Shown here one piece after another: positions 6,793 through 14,443 of a stretch of 20,089 nucleotides of DNA. This DNA is from a virus. The stretch lies in IMG/VR virus record IMGVR_UViG_3300025120_008402, positions 1 to 20,089 of that record. One strand, written 5' to 3'. Both the position numbers and the translations under genes were made by a program. Under the pieces are notes generated by a model. It saw nothing but the letters and a program-made list of their open reading frames with translations, made no database searches and was not told the DNA's origin. Within the stretch, counting starts at the first letter, position 1, and each line of letters begins with the position of its first letter.

Positions 6793-6821
6793 ATAGTAAG
6801 ACAAAATGGGTGGATATACAA
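6793..6821 (-). promoter_or_regulatory. Candidate promoter for the leftward early operon
   Basis: On the minus strand, TTGTAT (6816-6821) is followed after 17 bases by TACTAT (6793-6798), and a TATAAT also lies at 6781-6786 without a good upstream box. Matches to consensus are only partial, so the exact element is uncertain. A promoter must lie in this 86-bp divergent region because the leftward operon starts here. Confidence 0.3.
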
Positions 6822-6839
6822 GAACTTATCTGATATAGT
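6811..6839 (+). promoter_or_regulatory. Candidate rightward early promoter, giving a leaderless message
   Basis: TGGATA (6811-6816) is 17 bases before TATAGT (6834-6839), which is extended by TG at 6831-6832. The expected start, 6-7 bases after the -10, coincides with ATG 6846. A perfect 9-bp palindrome, TATCTGATA (6827-6835), overlaps the -10 and would suit an operator. It also overlaps the candidate leftward promoter, so the two would compete or be co-regulated. Confidence 0.45.
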
Positions 6840-6845
6840 TTGTTT

Positions 6846-7052
6846 ATGAAATTAGGTACATGGCTAAAAGATAATAAATATACCCACGCAACATTTATTG
6901 ATATGGCAAATAAACATGGTGCGTCATTTACAATACATGCTTTAGCAAAATGGTGTAGAGGTGTAAGAATACCAAGAAAAGATGAAATGGAAAATTTACA
7001 CAAGCTCACAAAAGGCAATGTACAGCCTAATGATTTTTATAACTTGCAATAA
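6846..7052 (+). CDS. Cro-like helix-turn-helix regulator
   Basis: A 68-residue protein. ATG 6846 is preferred to an in-frame TTG at 6840. LGTWLKDNKYTHATFIDMAN forms helices 1-2, FTIHALAKWCRGVRIPR the recognition helix with the K-W-x-R-G-x-R-I-P-R turn seen in many phage Cro-like proteins, and a dimerisation or closing helix follows (DEMENLHKLTKG), then PNDFYNL. It is the first rightward gene, directly facing the leftward operon, the classic place for a switch regulator. No ribosome binding site is visible; the predicted transcript starts at or near the ATG, so the message may be leaderless. Confidence 0.75.
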   Translation: MKLGTWLKDNKYTHATFIDMANKHGASFTIHALAKWCRGVRIPRKDEMENLHKLTKGNVQPNDFYNLQ

Positions 7053-7079
7053 TTTATAAATAAAAGTACATTATGGGTT

Positions 7080-7436
7080 ATGAGTATTGAAGCCCTAGGA
7101 TGGTGTAAAAAACAAGACTGTAATACGCCAAGTACAAAATTAGTATTATTCATACTTTCTAACTACGCAGATGAGCAACATAGTTGTTATCCAAGTGAAA
7201 AACATTTAGCAAAAATATGTGGCATTAGCGATAGACAAATTCGTAGATGCCTTACATGGTTAGAAAACAACAATATGCTTACAGTAAAACATAGAAAAGG
7301 CACTAGCAATAGGTATTATCTAAGTGTGGACACCAACGTCCTAACCCTTAGGACACGTAAGTCCGCCTATACTAAAGACATACAAAAGACTAATCAGAAG
7401 AAAAAAAATAGGAGTAAAAATGAACTTGCAGGCTAA
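7080..7436 (+). CDS. HTH replication-associated protein (HTH_36 / replication O-like N-terminus)
   Basis: A 118-residue protein. STKLVLFILSNYADEQHSCYPSEKHLAKICGISDRQIRRCLTWLE, split over residues 18-62, is the HTH_36-type winged helix found at the N-terminus of phage O-like and DnaD-like replication proteins. It is followed by a KHRKGTSNRYYL wing and a lysine-rich tail (KKKNRSK) suited to DNA binding. It overlaps the primase-helicase gene by 17 nt. It may bind the replication origin and help load the helicase; that is inferred from context. It lacks the helicase-loading C-terminus of lambda O, so a plain regulator is the alternative. Confidence 0.65.
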   Translation: MSIEALGWCKKQDCNTPSTKLVLFILSNYADEQHSCYPSEKHLAKICGISDRQIRRCLTWLENNNMLTVKHRKGTSNRYYLSVDTNVLTLRTRKSAYTKDIQKTNQKKKNRSKNELAG

Positions 7437-9108
7437 GTTAAAAGATGAACAAAATATAGATGCATATGATTGTGGAGAAGGTTCACATAAAATTATGTGT
7501 CCACAATGTCAACCACCACACAACCCAAAAGATAGACCACTGAGCCTTACTATAGAAAATGACACTGCTTTATGGCTTTGTCATCACTGCAATTTTAGTG
7601 GATCAATAAAACCTAATGGGTCCTATACAAAACCAACAATAAAAGTAGAAACAAAAAGTGTTGGATTTGATGCAAAAGCTAATGATTATTTAGATAGTTA
7701 TTTTAGTAAGAGATCAATTTCTCGTGAAACCTATCAAGCCTTTAACATTTTTTGTAAAGACAAAAAGTGGATTGGATTTCCATTTAATGGTTTCAATAAT
7801 AGATGCGATAATATTAAATATAGAACTGCTGATAAACAATTTAAACAAACACCAAAAGCTAAAAAAAGTTTATATAACTATGCCCATGTAAAAGATGCAA
7901 ACGTAGTTGTATTTGTTGAGGGTGAGATTGATGTACTTAGTTTATGGGAAGTAGGTTTTAAAAACTGCACAACACTTCCTGATGGCGCTCCTGCGACTGT
8001 GTCATACAAAGAAAATGATAAAAGATTTAGTTGCTTACAAACACACCCACTAAAGGCAAAAAAAATAATACTATTTGCAGATGCTGATGGTGCAGGTGAA
8101 AACTTAAACAAAGAATTAATACATAGATATGGTAAAGATAAGTGTTGGATAGTTGAAACGCCAAAAGATTGTAAAGATGCAAATGACATATTAGTTAAAT
8201 TAGGCGCTGAAGTTTTAAAAAGAATAGTAAGGAACGCAAAACCACTTCCAGTAGATGGGCTTTATTCTGTTAATAGTTATACAAAAGATGTTATTGATTT
8301 ATACAATGGGAATTATGACAAACCTTTAGAAGTTGGATACCCAAGTTTGGATAAATTGTATAAAGTACAAAAAGGTACTTTCCATGTTTGGACTGGTATA
8401 CCTAATCATGGCAAAAGCACATTCTTAGATCAAATATTAGTACGCATTGCAAAACAGCATGATTGGAAGTTTGCTATTTTTTCACCTGAACATTCAACAA
8501 AAATGCATATAAGAAGATTGTTGCAAATTGTTGCAGAAAAACCATTTGATAAAGGCTTTACTACAAGAATGGATACAACAGAATTACATAACGCATTAGA
8601 GTGGATACATGAGCATTTCTTTTTTATAGAAACTAGAGAACACATACCAAATGTAGAAAAAATATTAGAGATAGCATCGCAAAGCTGTCAAAAGTTTGGA
8701 GTAAATGGCATTGTTATTGACCCATTTAATGAGGTATCAGCTATAAGGAGAGGTAATCAAAGAGAAGACGAGCATATAAGAGACTTCATTTCTAACTGCA
8801 AGAGGTTCGCTAGAAAGCATGATTGTACTGTTTGGGTAGTAGCGCACCCTACTAAGATGCAAAAGGATAACAATGGCGGCTATGCGCCACCTACAGCATA
8901 TGATATAGCAGGTGCTGCCCATTGGCATAATCAAAGTGATGCAGTCGTAACAATACATAGAGATTTTGATGATGAATCTGTTACTCTTATAACTAGAAAA
9001 ATAAGAGAGCAGGGACTTTATGGTTCCATAGGTGAAGCTAAGTTTGAATATAACCAAGCAAAAAGAATTTTTGAAGAAAGAAAACTAGATAGTAATTGGA
9101 GTTATTAA
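7420..9108 (+). CDS. Bifunctional DNA primase-helicase (T7 gp4/Twinkle-like)
   Basis: A 562-residue protein with AGGAG upstream of ATG 7420. The zinc ribbon is Cys27-x2-Cys30 and Cys54-x2-Cys57. A TOPRIM domain follows: FVEGEID (Glu167, Asp171) and LFADADGAG (Asp221, Asp223). The RecA/DnaB-like helicase has Walker A GIPNHGKST (326-334), SPEHS (355-359), Walker B IVIDP (Asp434), and VVAHPTK (473-479), the sensor-like H3 motif. It synthesises primers and unwinds DNA as a ring at the phage fork. All key residues are present, so both activities should be intact. No phage DNA polymerase is in this window; it is either elsewhere in the genome or supplied by the host. Confidence 0.95.
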   Translation: MNLQAKLKDEQNIDAYDCGEGSHKIMCPQCQPPHNPKDRPLSLTIENDTALWLCHHCNFSGSIKPNGSYTKPTIKVETKSVGFDAKANDYLDSYFSKRSISRETYQAFNIFCKDKKWIGFPFNGFNNRCDNIKYRTADKQFKQTPKAKKSLYNYAHVKDANVVVFVEGEIDVLSLWEVGFKNCTTLPDGAPATVSYKENDKRFSCLQTHPLKAKKIILFADADGAGENLNKELIHRYGKDKCWIVETPKDCKDANDILVKLGAEVLKRIVRNAKPLPVDGLYSVNSYTKDVIDLYNGNYDKPLEVGYPSLDKLYKVQKGTFHVWTGIPNHGKSTFLDQILVRIAKQHDWKFAIFSPEHSTKMHIRRLLQIVAEKPFDKGFTTRMDTTELHNALEWIHEHFFFIETREHIPNVEKILEIASQSCQKFGVNGIVIDPFNEVSAIRRGNQREDEHIRDFISNCKRFARKHDCTVWVVAHPTKMQKDNNGGYAPPTAYDIAGAAHWHNQSDAVVTIHRDFDDESVTLITRKIREQGLYGSIGEAKFEYNQAKRIFEERKLDSNWSY

Positions 9109-9773
9109 TGCGAGATATTGGAAAAATTTATGATTTAATTGCATCTAACTATGATACAAATTATGCAGATGACAGAGTAGGTAACATAGTAGAAGCAGAA
9201 AATAGGTTTATTAAAGAAATTATGCCCTATCAATTTGGTAGTATTTGCGATTGTGGCAGTGGAACTGGGTTGCTATTTGATTTAGCTAATATAAATCCTA
9301 GTGATTATACTGGTATAGATGCATCATCTAAAATGATAAAAGAAGCAAAAAAAAAGCATCCTAATGCTAAATTTATAAATTGTGATATTTTTCAACATCA
9401 TGCATGGTATGACTGCTGCGTTTCTTTATTTAGTGTTCCTGATTACTGCGGTATTGGAATAATTAAAAAAGCATATGATTTATTAAATAACAATGGACTA
9501 TTTATATGCACTTTTATTAATAGTAATGGCGTTTATAAAAAATTACATTGCATAGAAGAAATTGGAATTGATTATGACCCATGTACTTTTACATATGCAG
9601 AAATATCATATGAACTAGAAAAAGTAGGTTTCAACTGGTACTATATACTATCAATTATTAATTTAGAAGATAGTACAGATGTACATAGCATGACAAATCA
9701 ATTACTAGAAAATAAACACAATTTAGCAGAAGCTAAGTATTTTTTTGTTATAGGAGAAAAAAGTGAAACTTAA
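9108..9773 (+). CDS. Class I SAM-dependent methyltransferase (substrate unknown)
   Basis: A 221-residue protein; ATG 9108 overlaps the primase TAA (TAATG) and has TTGGAG ahead. Motif I is CDCGSGTG (48-55), followed by the acidic loop YTGIDASSKMIKEA (Asp71 would bind the SAM ribose) and FINCDIF, a Rossmann-fold methyltransferase of the Methyltransf_25/11 type. No DPPY/NPPY catalytic motif is present, so it is not an N6-adenine enzyme; small molecules, proteins or modified bases are all possible. It opens a run of five tightly linked genes ending in a DNA methyltransferase, so it may act on a nucleotide or DNA intermediate; that is inference. Confidence 0.75.
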   Translation: MRDIGKIYDLIASNYDTNYADDRVGNIVEAENRFIKEIMPYQFGSICDCGSGTGLLFDLANINPSDYTGIDASSKMIKEAKKKHPNAKFINCDIFQHHAWYDCCVSLFSVPDYCGIGIIKKAYDLLNNNGLFICTFINSNGVYKKLHCIEEIGIDYDPCTFTYAEISYELEKVGFNWYYILSIINLEDSTDVHSMTNQLLENKHNLAEAKYFFVIGEKSET

Positions 9774-10896
9774 ATTAAGCATGAATGTGTTTGATGCTGC
9801 TCTCAGCAGGCTACAAGAAGTATATGAACAAGGTCATACAGTTGTTATTTCACAAAGTGGCGGCAAAGATTCTACTGTATGCATGGAGCTTGCAATTATG
9901 GCAGCAGATGCAGCAGGTAAACTGCCTATAAACGTCATACATCGCGACGAAGAAATTATGTTTCCAAATACATATGAATATTTAGATAGGGTTGCTGCTA
10001 GACCTGAGGTAAATATGCATCATGTTTGGGCAGGACAACCAGTTGTAAATGTATTTAATAGAAAAAATCCATATTGGTATATATTTGATGAAACAGTACC
10101 TCGCGAAGAATGGGTTAGACAACCTCCTGATTATGCGTATCAAATAGAAGAAAAAAATATACAAGCACTAGTAACAAAAGAAAGATTTCCTACAGAAGAA
10201 GGAAAAGATTTATTTGCATGCATTGGGTTGCGAGTACAAGAAAGCCCAAATAGAAGAATGGGTTTATTTTCAAGCAAAGGTCATATCACAAAGGCGAATA
10301 AATTAGGTGTTAAATACGTAAGACCAATTTATGACTGGGAAGATGGCGATGTATGGAAAGCTATTGAAGATTTTAAATGGGATTATAACCATGCTTATGA
10401 TGTAATGGTAAAACACGGTCGTAGCAAAAATAAATTGCGTATAGCACCTCTTACAATGACAACATCAGGGATACCTGATTTACAATTAGCGCAGAAGGCA
10501 TGGCCTCAGTGGTTTGATAAAGTATGTCATAGGCTAGATGGCATAAGAACTGTAACTCAATTTGGTAAAATATCATGTATGCCAAGAAGGCGAGCAGGTG
10601 AGACTTGGGAAGATTGTTTCCATCGTGAATGTATTAATGAAGCTCCTGAATGGATTGCGCAAAGAGCAAAACTAGCTTTACGCCAACAACTAGAAAAACA
10701 TCAAAGACAAAATGGCAATATCCCATTTCCACAAATAAATGCTTTAAGAGCAAATCCAATTGGCTCATATAAAAAACTATCTATAGCCATGTGGAATGGT
10801 GATCCATTTAGTTTTAAAGCAGGTTTTTTGCCCTATATGGAGCCTGAGTATTTTAGAAAAGGTGAAGGGTTTTGGGGTGGTAAACCATCATTCTAA
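9763..10896 (+). CDS. PAPS reductase-like PP-loop (adenine nucleotide alpha hydrolase) enzyme
   Basis: A 377-residue protein. A GTG start at 9763 is supported by AGGAG with a 6-nt spacer; an ATG 18 nt later is the alternative. The PP-loop SGGKDST (32-38) binds ATP and defines the N-type ATP pyrophosphatase fold shared by PAPS reductase, DndC and IbrA-like proteins. Downstream are YVRPIYDWEDGDVWKAI, also typical of the PAPS reductase/IbrA group, and a C-terminal helical part with cysteines (CMPRRRAGETWEDCFHREC). In bacteria IbrA is paired with a ParB-like protein, IbrB, matching the arrangement here. PAPS reductase proper needs a C-terminal catalytic ECGLH motif; I do not see it, so true sulfate reduction is unlikely. 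ATP-dependent activation of a nucleic acid or sulfur substrate is the favoured guess. Confidence 0.85.
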   Translation: MKLKLSMNVFDAALSRLQEVYEQGHTVVISQSGGKDSTVCMELAIMAADAAGKLPINVIHRDEEIMFPNTYEYLDRVAARPEVNMHHVWAGQPVVNVFNRKNPYWYIFDETVPREEWVRQPPDYAYQIEEKNIQALVTKERFPTEEGKDLFACIGLRVQESPNRRMGLFSSKGHITKANKLGVKYVRPIYDWEDGDVWKAIEDFKWDYNHAYDVMVKHGRSKNKLRIAPLTMTTSGIPDLQLAQKAWPQWFDKVCHRLDGIRTVTQFGKISCMPRRRAGETWEDCFHRECINEAPEWIAQRAKLALRQQLEKHQRQNGNIPFPQINALRANPIGSYKKLSIAMWNGDPFSFKAGFLPYMEPEYFRKGEGFWGGKPSF

Positions 10897-11168
10897 TGGA
10901 CGATTTAGCAGAACACATAGAAGGTGTAAATTGGATATGGGCAAAGACCTATGCACTAATTGCACCACATTGGTATATAAGAAGTCATGAGCAGCCATAT
11001 CTTTATTCAATTTTGCAAAGAATGATAAAATTACAAGGGGTTGATGAACAATACACAAACCATAAAGGCACGACATACCTTTGTAGATATTTTTATCATG
11101 GTAAATATAAATATTGGGAAATGTCTCCCATAATAAATAGAGCAGAGGTTAATAATGGCGAAGTTTAA
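10896..11168 (+). CDS. Conserved hypothetical protein of the PP-loop/ParB gene block
   Basis: A 90-residue protein starting at TAATG (10894-10898) and overlapping the ParB gene by 14 nt. Features are WIWAKTYALIAPHWYIRSHE near the start and YKYWEMSPIINRAEV near the end. From memory the pattern TYA-x3-PHxY-x2-R together with YW-x-M...INRA belongs to a widespread family of unknown function; this should be checked. Rich in Trp, Tyr and His. No known catalytic site. Its strict position between the PP-loop and ParB genes suggests a partner in the same process. Confidence 0.65.
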   Translation: MDDLAEHIEGVNWIWAKTYALIAPHWYIRSHEQPYLYSILQRMIKLQGVDEQYTNHKGTTYLCRYFYHGKYKYWEMSPIINRAEVNNGEV

Positions 11169-11964
11169 AGGTAAGGCACAAGTAGAAAAGAAAAATGCAG
11201 TTTTGAAAGCATTAGATGTTCAATACATTACACATGATAAAATTGTTCCTAATACTTATAATCCAAATAGACAATCAGAAGATGAATTTGAATTACTTAA
11301 AAGATCAATGACAGAAGATGGTTTCACACAACCAATTGTATGCGTAGAACATGAGACAAAAGGCATGTTTAGAATCGTTGATGGTGAGCATAGATGGCGC
11401 TGTTCTAAAGAATTAGGATATGCAGAAATACCTATTGTAGTAACCCCTATGTCAATGGAGCAGGCGCGTATCGCAACATTAAGACATAACAGGGCAAGAG
11501 GGTCAGAAGATATTGAGCTTACAGCTAACGTGCTTAGAGATTTAGAGTCATTAGGAGCATTAGATTGGGCGCAAGACTCATTAATGATGGACGATTTAGA
11601 ATTACAAAGAATGTTGGAAGATATACCTGCTCCTGAAGCTATGGCAGGTGAAGAATTTGGTCAAGCATGGATACCTGTTGATAATGATTCTAGTGAAGAT
11701 GGTGTTGCAGGTGTTGAACATGCTACTGCTGATGGTGTAATGGTAAAGTCATTAACTGTTGAAGCATTAAATAGACAAAGACAAGTAGAAGCAATAGTGG
11801 CTAATGCAAGAACTGATGAAGAAAGAAATATGGCTGTAAAGGAAGCAAATTTTTACAGATTAAATTTAGTATTTAGTGGCGAAGAAGCTGATATTGTAAA
11901 GTCAGCTCTTGGTGTAAATCCTGCAGAACAATTATTAGAATGGTGTAAAAATGCCAATAGTTAA
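11155..11964 (+). CDS. ParB/sulfiredoxin-fold nuclease-like protein
   Basis: A 269-residue protein with AGAGG before ATG 11155. NTYNPNRQSEDEFELLKRSM and GFTQPIVC lead into the ParB/Srx core motif DGEHRWR (76-82, GEHR at 77-80) and EIPIVV. ParB-type proteins use this site to bind CTP or to cut DNA; IbrB-like and phage versions lack the centromere-binding part. The C-terminal half is an acidic linker and a helical segment ending in LVFSGEEADIVKSALG. No HTH for parS binding is recognisable, so chromosome partitioning is unlikely. The gene overlaps the DNA methyltransferase by 14 nt, and the two look like the halves of ParB-methyltransferase proteins seen as fusions elsewhere. Confidence 0.85.
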   Translation: MAKFKGKAQVEKKNAVLKALDVQYITHDKIVPNTYNPNRQSEDEFELLKRSMTEDGFTQPIVCVEHETKGMFRIVDGEHRWRCSKELGYAEIPIVVTPMSMEQARIATLRHNRARGSEDIELTANVLRDLESLGALDWAQDSLMMDDLELQRMLEDIPAPEAMAGEEFGQAWIPVDNDSSEDGVAGVEHATADGVMVKSLTVEALNRQRQVEAIVANARTDEERNMAVKEANFYRLNLVFSGEEADIVKSALGVNPAEQLLEWCKNANS

Positions 11965-12652
11965 ATATGGAGATGCAGGTGATAGAATACCAGTTCAATT
12001 CGGTGATGTATGGGAAGCTGGTCCCCATAAAATAATATGTGCTGATATGCAGAAACCACAATATTTTGATGCAATAGATTATTTGGGAGATTGGGATTGT
12101 ATGTGGGTAGACCCACCATGGAACTCAGGCAATGCAGCGACTTTCAGAACTAAAGCAGGGATACCTGATAAAGTAGACATACATGAATTATTAAATATCG
12201 TTTTTAAAATGTTTGATAAAACAAAGGGTTCTATTTATATGGAAATTGGGAAACAAACTTTTGATTATGCATATGAATATTTGCAAAAAAGAAATGGTTA
12301 TATAACACAAGAATGGGATGTTTTTTATTATGGAAATAAACCATGTAAATATATACGAAGTGGCAAAGAATCTATAGATTTTGATTTTACACATATGGAC
12401 GAAATGAAAGTTCCGCTACCGAGTTTTAAACATGAAATAAATGTTAATAAAATTAAAACTGTATTTGATTGCTGCACTGGACAAGGTTTAGTTCCAGTTA
12501 CTGCTGATAAATTAGGTCTAAATTTTATTGGCACTGATTTAAATAATAGAAGAATTGCTGTAAGCCTAGATAAACTTGCAAAGCAAAGTGGGTACACACC
12601 TCAAAAAATTGGTCATCTTAATGATATACATGTTACTTCTAATGATGTTTAG
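11951..12652 (+). CDS. N6-adenine-type DNA methyltransferase
   Basis: A 233-residue protein. The N-terminus, FGDVWEAGPHKIICADM, resembles the linker that joins ParB and methyltransferase domains in fused proteins (GDxWxLGxHxxxCGD). The catalytic motif IV is DPPW (54-57); motif I comes later as FDCCTGQG (172-179) followed by FIGTDL (Asp196). The order IV then I is that of beta-class N6-adenine (or N4-cytosine) methyltransferases such as CcrM. Motif I has Cys-Thr where FxGxG enzymes have Gly, but the GxG is kept. No restriction enzyme is nearby, so it is probably an orphan modifier that protects or marks phage DNA. The recognition sequence cannot be read from the gene. Confidence 0.85.
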   Translation: MPIVKYGDAGDRIPVQFGDVWEAGPHKIICADMQKPQYFDAIDYLGDWDCMWVDPPWNSGNAATFRTKAGIPDKVDIHELLNIVFKMFDKTKGSIYMEIGKQTFDYAYEYLQKRNGYITQEWDVFYYGNKPCKYIRSGKESIDFDFTHMDEMKVPLPSFKHEINVNKIKTVFDCCTGQGLVPVTADKLGLNFIGTDLNNRRIAVSLDKLAKQSGYTPQKIGHLNDIHVTSNDV

Positions 12653-12697: not shown

Positions 12698-12911
12698 GTC
12701 TTATCATTAAACCTTGTAAGTAAAAGTCAAACATTTTTGCAGTAGATATATTGTATTGTTTAGGCAGTAATGATGCATCTAGTAAATTCATTACAGTATT
12801 TTTATTTTTTATTACAAAACTATAACTTAACAATCCAATTGCATCCTCTATATCCCAAAACATATGCTTGAAGTTTTCATTTAAATTACCATTTTCTTGA
12901 TACATATACAT
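12687..12911 (-). CDS. Small hypothetical protein of the amidoligase operon
   Basis: A 74-residue protein, last gene of the minus-strand operon. ATG 12911 overlaps the upstream TAA and has AGGAG 7 nt ahead. It has an acidic, polar N-terminus (YMYQENGNLNENF), a helical hydrophobic middle (DIEDAIGLLSYSFVI, VMNLLDASLL) and a basic end (MIRRKG). No family recognised. Co-transcription with an amidoligase and a cyclotransferase makes it a possible substrate or partner of those enzymes, which is speculation. Confidence 0.7.
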   Translation of the reverse strand: MYMYQENGNLNENFKHMFWDIEDAIGLLSYSFVIKNKNTVMNLLDASLLPKQYNISTAKMFDFYLQGLMIRRKG

Positions 12912-13390
12912 TATTTTACTCCTGTATTACTGTACGAGTCTTTTAAAGCGTACATAAGTGGGTCAGTTCCTATATTAAAATCTGTATAACCATTTACTAT
13001 ACTTTCAAAATATCTACTTGATGGCGGATATACGTCTTTGCTATTCATAAAATAAATCATTACTTGTGTTGTACCAAACTTATTCTTTAATGCAGGCACG
13101 TCTACAATTTCTTTGCGATATAAATTAGGGTAGCCTTCATATATATCTAACTTACGTTCACATGCATCTGTAATTCTCCAAAGACCTAGCGGCACTTCTG
13201 ATGTTTTACATTTTTCTATATCAGCAACACCTCTAAACTTTAAAGCAAAGCCACTAACAATAACGCTTCCTAATGCTTCTGCATGAGGGCATCTATATTG
13301 CATTTGTGCCATGTTTAGATTGCTGCCATATGCTCCATATAGGTATGGCATTTCTTTTGTAGGTCTTGTTTCTAGTATCTTATATTTCAT
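12911..13390 (-). CDS. Gamma-glutamylcyclotransferase-like (AIG2/GGCT) protein
   Basis: A 159-residue protein with AAGGAG before ATG 13390. The substrate loop YGSNL (21-25) and the catalytic Glu in LDIYEGYPNLYRKEIV (Glu85) define the GGCT/AIG2 fold. SGFALKFRGVADI and EVPLGLWRITD are the usual intervening strands. GGCT enzymes release 5-oxoproline from gamma-glutamyl amides; relatives act on gamma-glutamylamines. Known surveys of amidoligases report cyclotransferases as neighbours, where they probably reverse or remodel the amide bond made by the ligase. The start overlaps no gene and is 12 nt after the amidoligase stop, so one transcript is likely. Confidence 0.85.
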   Translation of the reverse strand: MKYKILETRPTKEMPYLYGAYGSNLNMAQMQYRCPHAEALGSVIVSGFALKFRGVADIEKCKTSEVPLGLWRITDACERKLDIYEGYPNLYRKEIVDVPALKNKFGTTQVMIYFMNSKDVYPPSSRYFESIVNGYTDFNIGTDPLMYALKDSYSNTGVK

Positions 13391-13402: not shown

Positions 13403-14443
13403 TTAATTAAGTTCTAGTTCTCGTTCTTGGTAAAATGTTTTAACTTTATTATCTACACCATCTAACCAACCACCATCTATTTCATTATCTGTTGTAGGTA
13501 TGTAGTTCCATAAAGAGTAATTAAACTCTATGTCAGCAGGTAAATTTTCATGTAAAAATGCTTCTGCATATAATTTGTTTAATGATGATTCTTTGTTTGT
13601 TTCATATAACTCCTCTAATTCTTCACCATAAAAACCTGTAAACCAACCTGTATTCTCATTAGTTATTATCCAACGCTTACTACCTGATCTATAACTAAGA
13701 TTAAATCCATTATTTTCTAAAAGAGTCCTAAGAGTATTATATGCTCGGCTCTTAGGTGGTTTTGTTTTATTTTTAGTTGTTAATTTTGCACTTGTATCAA
13801 CAAAAGCCATTAAAAAACTAACCCAATTTATAATCTTATCAAAATTAATAGTTCCGCTATGTTGTCTAAACTCCATAGTTCCATATCTTGTAAGACTTTG
13901 TAAATTCACTTTGTAGTATCTACCTGCTGCATGAGCTAGTCCTGTTTTAGTTTTACTTCTTACATTTTTAATACGACCTTTAACATCAGTAACACTTCTA
14001 CACCATCTGCTGTTTTGTCCACGTCTGCTTCTAGGCATAATCATATCTATTTGGCTTTCATAATCTGCATATCTCTCGTAAACACTTTGTATCTGACCAA
14101 CTGTTAAATCACTTACATCTAAATGCACATGCAAACCACATTGCACATTAACTCTAATGTTATCTAATGTATCTAAAGCTGCTATAACTTGCTCTAGTTG
14201 TTTAGCGCCATCTTCGCCTTTTAATATAGGACTAACTATCTCACCACCCACACCATCTAAACTGGCATCAGTAACTAACTTCCAGTAAGGGGTAGTATTA
14301 TGATGGTAGCCTTCAAAGTAACAATCAATACCAGTTGCATTAATTACGTTTGCTACCTCTTGTGGTCTAACACCTACAAACTCTAATTCAACACCAAAGG
14401 TGCGATCAGTTAATGTAGGGTAGTTGTTGTTTAAGTTATTCAA
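13403..14443 (-). CDS. Putative amidoligase (Amidoligase_2, COOH-NH2 ligase)
   Basis: A 346-residue protein. The start is TTG 14443: a perfect AAGGAG lies exactly 6 nt upstream, and the coding sequence begins directly after it. The N-terminus TFGVELEFVG (15-24) is the first metal/ATP strand of the glutamine-synthetase-like fold. DASLDGVGGEIVSPIL, CGLHVHLD and TMEFRQHSGT follow in the order expected for Amidoligase_2, supplying the acidic and histidine ligands. These enzymes are predicted to use ATP to form amide bonds between carboxyl and amino groups of small molecules, peptides or proteins. It heads an operon with a cyclotransferase and a small protein, under its own promoter. The substrate is unknown. 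Confidence 0.85.
   Translation of the reverse strand: MNNLNNNYPTLTDRTFGVELEFVGVRPQEVANVINATGIDCYFEGYHHNTTPYWKLVTDASLDGVGGEIVSPILKGEDGAKQLEQVIAALDTLDNIRVNVQCGLHVHLDVSDLTVGQIQSVYERYADYESQIDMIMPRSRRGQNSRWCRSVTDVKGRIKNVRSKTKTGLAHAAGRYYKVNLQSLTRYGTMEFRQHSGTINFDKIINWVSFLMAFVDTSAKLTTKNKTKPPKSRAYNTLRTLLENNGFNLSYRSGSKRWIITNENTGWFTGFYGEELEELYETNKESSLNKLYAEAFLHENLPADIEFNYSLWNYIPTTDNEIDGGWLDGVDNKVKTFYQERELELN

Follow-up and report, generated by a model that had tools for sequence, protein, structure and literature searches.

We find that a five-gene block in a 20,089-bp linear fragment of viral DNA (IMG/VR record IMGVR_UViG_3300025120_008402; analyzed over its whole length and referred to here as the window) is probably a phage cassette for DNA hypermodification with an IbrA/IbrB pair at its core, that is, a PP-loop enzyme (IbrA) together with a ParB-like protein (IbrB). 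Its most likely role is to decorate the viral DNA itself as a protection from bacterial defences. The block fits hypermodification because it joins an ATP enzyme to a DNA-binding partner, is accompanied by exchangeable group-transfer enzymes, and is replaceable by known base-modification systems; DNA is the favoured target because the corresponding region of sister phages holds known DNA-base-modifying enzymes instead. Open reading frames (ORFs) were called by a simple longest-ORF rule, all records compared are fragments, and L-numbers are labels of fetched loci in relatives. The block and its motifs are as follows:

9108–9773, + strand: MT1, a class I (Rossmann) S-adenosylmethionine (SAM)-dependent enzyme of Methyltransf_25 type (Methyltransf_25, E = 3.5e-8)
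9763–10896, + strand: IbrA-type PP-loop (N-type ATP pyrophosphatase) enzyme with a GTG start (PAPS_reduct, 1.2e-13; phrog_2302, 1e-55)
9856–9876, + strand: PP-loop motif SGGKDST, IbrA residues 32–38 (family alignment)
10896–11168, + strand: U90, a 90-residue domain with the pattern W..AKT....PH.Y ... YKYW ... INRA (fusions elsewhere; AlphaFold2 model)
11155–11964, + strand: IbrB-type protein of ParB/Srx fold (ParB_N, 7e-15)
11383–11394, + strand: GEHR motif of the ParB-like domain (DGEHR, IbrB residues 76–80; IbrB family alignment)
11951–12652, + strand: MT2, a small beta-class (permuted) DNA amino-methyltransferase, an optional add-on (family profile)
12110–12121, + strand: DPPW catalytic motif, MT2 residues 54–57 (MT2 family alignment)

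The original prediction had described five overlapping genes on one strand, and the ORFs and Pfam matches bear out their order, place and overlaps, with the SGGKDST, GEHR and DPPW motifs it named all located in the PP-loop, ParB-like and methyltransferase genes. The overlaps MT1/IbrA, IbrA/U90, U90/IbrB and IbrB/MT2 are 11, 1, 14 and 14 nucleotides, and the primase-helicase gene upstream overlaps MT1 by 1 nucleotide. The cassette has replication genes on one side and TerS on the other, and often stands just upstream of TerS/TerL.

Sister phages, gathered by a TerL scan and a primase-helicase scan, show what else this region can hold and supply the strongest evidence on function. In sisters without IbrAB, the region from PDDEXK/ERF genes to TerS carries a TAGT, TET/JBP oxygenase, C5 DNA methylase or Mom gene (Pfam E values of 1e-20 to 1e-45), usually behind a ParB-like gene. 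Searches of whole records found TAGT, Mom, C5 or TET genes in 0 of 11 IbrA-positive records and in 6 of 6 IbrA-negative records (one-sided P = 8e-5 for the 17 sister records, ignoring phylogeny). With the primase-helicase as anchor, 22 clusters with full context comprise nine with IbrAB, nine with TET, TAGT, Mom or C5 genes, and none with both (P = 0.0014, without phylogenetic correction); the other four have an amino-type DNA methyltransferase only (L395, L417) or are empty (L390, L420). The TET/JBP-TAGT, Mom and C5-methyltransferase cassettes occupy the same region as IbrAB, from the recombination genes to TerS, whereas their enzymes are unrelated to IbrAB and never occur together with it in this lineage. 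We conclude that related phages can carry known DNA-modification genes in exchange for IbrAB. The earlier proposal of a DNA modification that shields phage DNA gains from this exclusion and from the tailoring enzymes described below, and loses its sulfur variant, which is disfavoured. As individual observations, L337 carries two Mom-family genes in the cassette's region (2–586, − strand, and 6804–7499), one of them directly upstream of TerS; TET/JBP and TAGT-type genes are found in the sister marine phages L347 (577–2309), L327, L364 and L381; and nucleotidyltransferase or NAD-epimerase-like genes beside the sister TET/TAGT genes may supply sugars.

The core of the cassette belongs to the IbrA/IbrB family, in which a PP-loop gene resembling 3'-phosphoadenosine-5'-phosphosulfate (PAPS) reductase adjoins a ParB-like gene; profiles and alignments both support the kinship that had been suggested. 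An IbrA profile scan yielded 59 viral IbrA clusters at 70% identity, of which 57 have a ParB-type gene within 2.5 kb of IbrA, and the two negative clusters (L035, L039) nonetheless have a ParB-type ORF in the raw ORF list. Bacterial genomes contain IbrB in 76 of 80 IbrA loci. Pairing of IbrA with a ParB-type partner is near-obligate. Homologues of the pair are found in the isolated-phage collection (more than 200 records) as well as in many genomes of bacteria; their usual annotations are PAPS reductase and plasmid partition protein, and at times they are taken for auxiliary genes of sulfur metabolism. The known pairs (E. coli prophage co-activators; the E. coli K-12 ybdN/ybdM type; pairs of Flavobacterium, Streptococcus and Mycobacterium phages) have the invariant residues SGGKDS, P..DW...D.W, DG.HR and RHNRARG in common with the window, at identities of 22–26% (IbrA) and 31–38% (IbrB) in two alignments. 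The window differs from them in adding MT1, U90, MT2 and an IbrB C-terminal region, and in lacking a detectable DUF3440.

The AlphaFold2 model of IbrA (mean predicted local distance difference test score, pLDDT, 91) has as its nearest fold the PAPS-like domain of human flavin adenine dinucleotide (FAD) synthase (template-modelling score, TM, 0.68 by target length), followed by CysD, PAPS and adenosine-5'-phosphosulfate reductases, and other PP-loop enzymes; the modelled fold thus resembles PP-loop enzymes that transfer or activate by adenylyl groups. Across 51 family members, S32, G34, K35, D36, S37, D62, E64, G155, E160, R164, P188, D191, D196, W198, Y212, R226 and R257 are invariant, and no cysteine is conserved, no column exceeding 47% Cys. 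DUF3440 (PF11922), present in all five homologues tested from named phages, was not found in the window IbrA at E ≤ 0.1, and the protein is therefore filed, from its sequence, as a divergent clade and not as canonical IbrA. The window IbrB has a ParB_N domain with the G.HR motif that places it in the ParB/Srx superfamily; its relatives in the Protein Data Bank (PDB) are Noc/ParB and free serine kinase. DG.HR and RHNRARG are invariant in all IbrB-family sequences compared, and the window protein continues at its C-terminus for about 85 residues in an extension specific to its clade. In L011 (1862–2655) IbrB lies in two overlapping frames, a frameshift or sequencing error. Mycobacterium phage Gaia (L020, 5596–6492) has an IbrB domain fused to an ectoine-synthase-like cupin, and separate cupin genes adjoin IbrA in many other phages.

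The structure prediction, profile searches and homologue survey that the original prediction had called for show a linked IbrAB core with interchangeable tailoring genes. Near relatives (L002–L019) keep the order and strand MT1-IbrA-U90-IbrB at 79–95% IbrA identity, with U90 missing in L016/L017. What follows IbrB varies: MT2 (window, L011), a glycosyltransferase (L004, L018), a glycosyltransferase with the cupin-type gene CUP (L002, L003, L005, L012), or nothing. Within 5 kb of IbrA, the 59 clusters contain an IbrB-type gene in 50, a second ParB-like gene in 38, U90 in 23, a cupin in 16, a glycosyltransferase in 12, MT2 in 11, MT1 in 10 and a GNAT gene in 9. The group-transfer genes linked to IbrAB comprise a beta-class DNA methyltransferase, a Rossmann methyltransferase, SET, SAM decarboxylase, GNAT, glycosyltransferase and cupin/HxD..H, and some IbrA neighbourhoods contain genes for SAM decarboxylase and arginine decarboxylase. 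Scans run in the reverse direction return the same cassette: 18 of 18 CUP-anchored clusters have IbrA, and 41 of 45 U90-anchored clusters have it within 5 kb, with the U90 and CUP profiles started from copies linked to IbrA and contig ends truncating some of the exceptions. U90 is cassette-specific.

MT1 is a UbiE/BioC-type class I SAM enzyme without a DPPY/SPPC DNA-methylase motif and is present in all near relatives at 34–79% identity. The U90 protein of the window has no match in Pfam, PHROG or NCBIfam and none by tblastn in the isolated-phage collection; its AlphaFold2 model (pLDDT 90) matches nothing in the PDB at E ≤ 0.001, the best TM score by query length being 0.41 among the 50 matches listed. 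In other loci the fusion partners of U90 include an MT1-type Rossmann methyltransferase (for example L085, 4575–5372; L208, L232, L238), a SET domain in L102 (SET, E = 2e-9) and a domain resembling SAM decarboxylase in L230 (AdoMet_dc, E = 5e-11), and from these sequences we read U90 as a module serving SAM-using enzymes. In the window, MT1 and U90 are separate genes, one on each side of ibrA; since U90 is elsewhere fused to an MT1-like methyltransferase, the two look like the halves of one tailoring unit. The U90-SAM-decarboxylase-like fusion stands directly upstream of IbrA in L230, L240 and L248, and SAM-decarboxylase genes precede SET-U90 fusions in L098 and L102. In L227 (4980–6770), where IbrA was not seen nearby, U90 is joined to an SMC/RecN-like ATPase domain. 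The literature searched contains no description of U90 or of the cassette.

MT2 is a beta-class DNA amino-methyltransferase with its DPPW motif before an FxGxG-type SAM motif. The single sequence matches N6_N4_Mtase weakly (0.003), and its family profile matches CcrM, DpnA and MboIIA at 4e-10 to 8e-10, and every aligned family member has D54, P55 and P56. Outside the window, MT2 is present in 1 of the 18 near relatives (L011). We rejected MT2 as an integral part of the cassette, from which it is gone or replaced in most relatives; the coupling to DPPW methylation in the original prediction is weak because MT2 is one of several interchangeable add-ons.

Immediately downstream of the block, on the opposite strand, lie two further genes:

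12911–13390, − strand: gamma-glutamyl(amine) cyclotransferase-like gene, GGCT (PF06094, 5.9e-8)
13403–14443, − strand: amidoligase_2 gene (PF12224, 3.5e-34)

GGCT and the amidoligase are each present in 11 of 11 IbrA-positive and 0 of 6 IbrA-negative sister records, and with the primase-helicase anchor both are present in 9 of 9 IbrA-positive and 0 of 13 IbrA-negative clusters. They are therefore inherited along with the cassette in this lineage, though not in most of the distant ones, making the unit wider than the five genes proposed, whose first four keep their order and strand in near relatives. Over all 59 IbrA clusters, the amidoligase is near six and is absent beside most of the distant ones. 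The amidoligase/GGCT pair, with the SAM and arginine decarboxylases, suggests amine metabolism without proving it.

PP-loop chemistry adenylates an oxygen and then proceeds by displacement, and a cassette that hypermodifies DNA could use it in the following way. IbrB, with its ParB/Srx fold, would bind and position the phage DNA, probably using nucleotide; IbrA with ATP would adenylate an acceptor, which could be an oxygen of the base or else a carboxyl group carried by the base or by a donor; and the adenylated acceptor would then take a nucleophile, an amine or other non-sulfur group being likelier than sulfur because IbrA has no conserved cysteines. MT1 with U90, as a split SAM-enzyme unit, and MT2 may then tailor the product, steps for which relatives would substitute glycosyltransferase, oxygenase-like, acetyltransferase, SET or SAM-decarboxylase enzymes, and the neighbouring amidoligase and GGCT may prepare an amine donor. 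The finished modification would protect the DNA from host nucleases. More tentatively, and with less conviction than we attach to hypermodification itself, we suggest that IbrAB may be the core of a large class of base-modification systems of phage DNA, in which a PP-loop/ParB complex would adenylate a DNA base and attach a lysidine-like, amine-containing group, modules specific to each phage (methyltransferase-U90, SET, SAM decarboxylase, GNAT, oxygenase, glycosyltransferase) would diversify the product, and U90 would be a new domain presenting the base to SAM enzymes. Replacement of a base before replication by a thymidylate-synthase-type enzyme was considered and rejected, there being no PF00303 match in the window or in five relatives.

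Several observations weigh against hypermodification. Profile comparisons gave no significant match between the IbrAB-linked glycosyltransferase and TAGT or between CUP and TET/JBP, and neither homology was retained. The statistics on exclusion draw on a single phage lineage, represented by contigs that are incomplete, and take no account of shared ancestry. Different sisters have their modification genes on different sides of the primase gene, so that the shared slot is a region and not an exact junction. Many bacterial IbrAB pairs have no tailoring genes, and the products of SET and amidoligase genes can have proteins or peptidoglycan as substrates. Lastly, IbrAB is not known to have any phenotype other than the activation of prophage eib genes, which is compatible with either DNA modification or regulation because DNA modification could itself alter prophage transcription.

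Regulation in its own right is the first alternative: IbrAB would co-activate transcription or control late genes, with the ParB-like component bound to DNA close to the late region and regulated through nucleotidylation by its PP-loop partner, and a role in turning on late genes would account for a position between the replication genes and TerS. One paper treats IbrA and IbrB as regulators of prophage transcription (PMC8813620), database records label the pair a co-activator of prophage gene expression, and the frequent position just upstream of TerS/TerL agrees. We nevertheless judge this unlikely, since it leaves unexplained both the swapping of glycosyltransferase, GNAT, methyltransferase, SET and SAM-decarboxylase partners and the exclusion of TET, TAGT, Mom and C5 genes, and since two sister phages (L390, L420) do without the cassette, their site being empty.

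Improbable to a similar degree is a target other than DNA, whether the host envelope, virion or host proteins, or tRNA. The amidoligase/GGCT set of another marine phage has been read as a peptidoglycan-modification cassette (PMC5498523), which also counts against DNA as the target; a SET domain is fused to U90; and the best PHROG for MT1 is phrog_4752 (tRNA methyltransferase). Against these stand the ParB-type DNA-binding partners and the beta-class DNA methyltransferase family in the cassette, the exclusion with DNA-specific systems, and the scarcity of the amidoligase near IbrA at large.

Reduced DNA phosphorothioation, with IbrA as a DndC-like sulfur transferase borrowing the host IscS, is very unlikely. 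The Dnd and Ssp systems likewise pair a PP-loop enzyme with a ParB-superfamily partner, since DndB and SspE belong to that superfamily (PMC11662687), and the window PP-loop protein, of the same superfamily as DndC, gives weak matches to the DndC, SspD and BrxP models. However, those systems have cysteine ligands, a desulfurase and DndD, none found for the window cassette. DndC works with a cysteine dyad and with a 4Fe-4S cluster held by cysteines (PMC10853773), whereas the 51 IbrA sequences have 0 conserved cysteines; the DndC model scores 17.3 bits against a cut-off of 290; the IbrA structure is nearest to FAD synthase, CysD and PAPS reductase; and searches of the window plus five relatives, which reach 53 kb and may all be incomplete, gave 0 matches to DndD or to a cysteine desulfurase. 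The original prediction that DndA, DndD and DndE are missing could not be known from the window, a linear fragment of this size; as regards DndD and a desulfurase, the relatives agree with it. Its sulfur option is disfavoured because IbrA is without conserved cysteines and the relatives are without dnd partners, which leaves amine-based or other adenylation chemistry as the likelier. An assimilatory PAPS reductase serving as a host-sulfur auxiliary metabolic gene, as homologues are annotated automatically and interpreted in PMC10434257, is scarcely credible, since CysH depends on a conserved catalytic cysteine lacking in the IbrA family, the NCBIfam cysH model scores 18.5 bits against a cut-off of 165, the ParB-like partner is obligate, and the neighbouring genes give no support.

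Hypermodification by an IbrAB cassette has precedents. In the 5-carboxymethylcytosine system of Synechococcus phage S-B43, CmoA, the DNA methyltransferase CmoX and the asparagine-synthetase-like AMP-forming ligase CmoY, often found with ParBc proteins, make 5-glycylcarboxymethyl-dC (PMC12783734), and this is a marine-phage precedent for the clustering of a SAM enzyme, a DNA methyltransferase, an AMP-forming ATP-dependent enzyme and a ParB-like protein. The parts differ: CmoX is a C5-methyltransferase with SPPC, whereas MT2 has DPPW, and the 11 IbrA-positive sister records have no C5-methyltransferase (PF00145) match; CmoY is asparagine-synthetase-like, whereas IbrA resembles PAPS reductase and FAD synthase; and MT1 was rejected as a CmoA-type carboxy-SAM (Cx-SAM) synthase, having matched BioC/UbiE-type models with no CmoA model among the matches listed. 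DpdB, a ParB-like ATPase that helps insert 7-deazaguanines into DNA (PMC12839542), is a further precedent for a ParB-like protein serving a base-modifying enzyme, as IbrB would do here; the Dpd transglycosylase was not seen in the window cassette, no genome-wide search for one having been made.

The literature searched gives no mechanism for the named pair IbrAB. A computational study by Iyer et al. in 2013 is said to have predicted phage 'lysidine-like pyrimidines' and 'modified SAM derivatives' from PP-loop and SAM-decarboxylase genes, a prediction that may be the same as ours or overlap with it. If DNA modification is correct, it would provide a testable function for a long-unexplained pair, correct a common misannotation, make U90 a new modification-associated domain, and predict a hitherto unrecognized modified base in isolated phages such as Flavobacterium phage 1H, Streptococcus phage CHPC1230 and Mycobacterium phage Gaia. 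Elsewhere in the window, Rfam and tRNA searches gave no matches, and outside the cassette the translations of ORFs 100–495 and 356–940, judged by eye, resemble a thermonuclease-type nuclease and a phage lysozyme.

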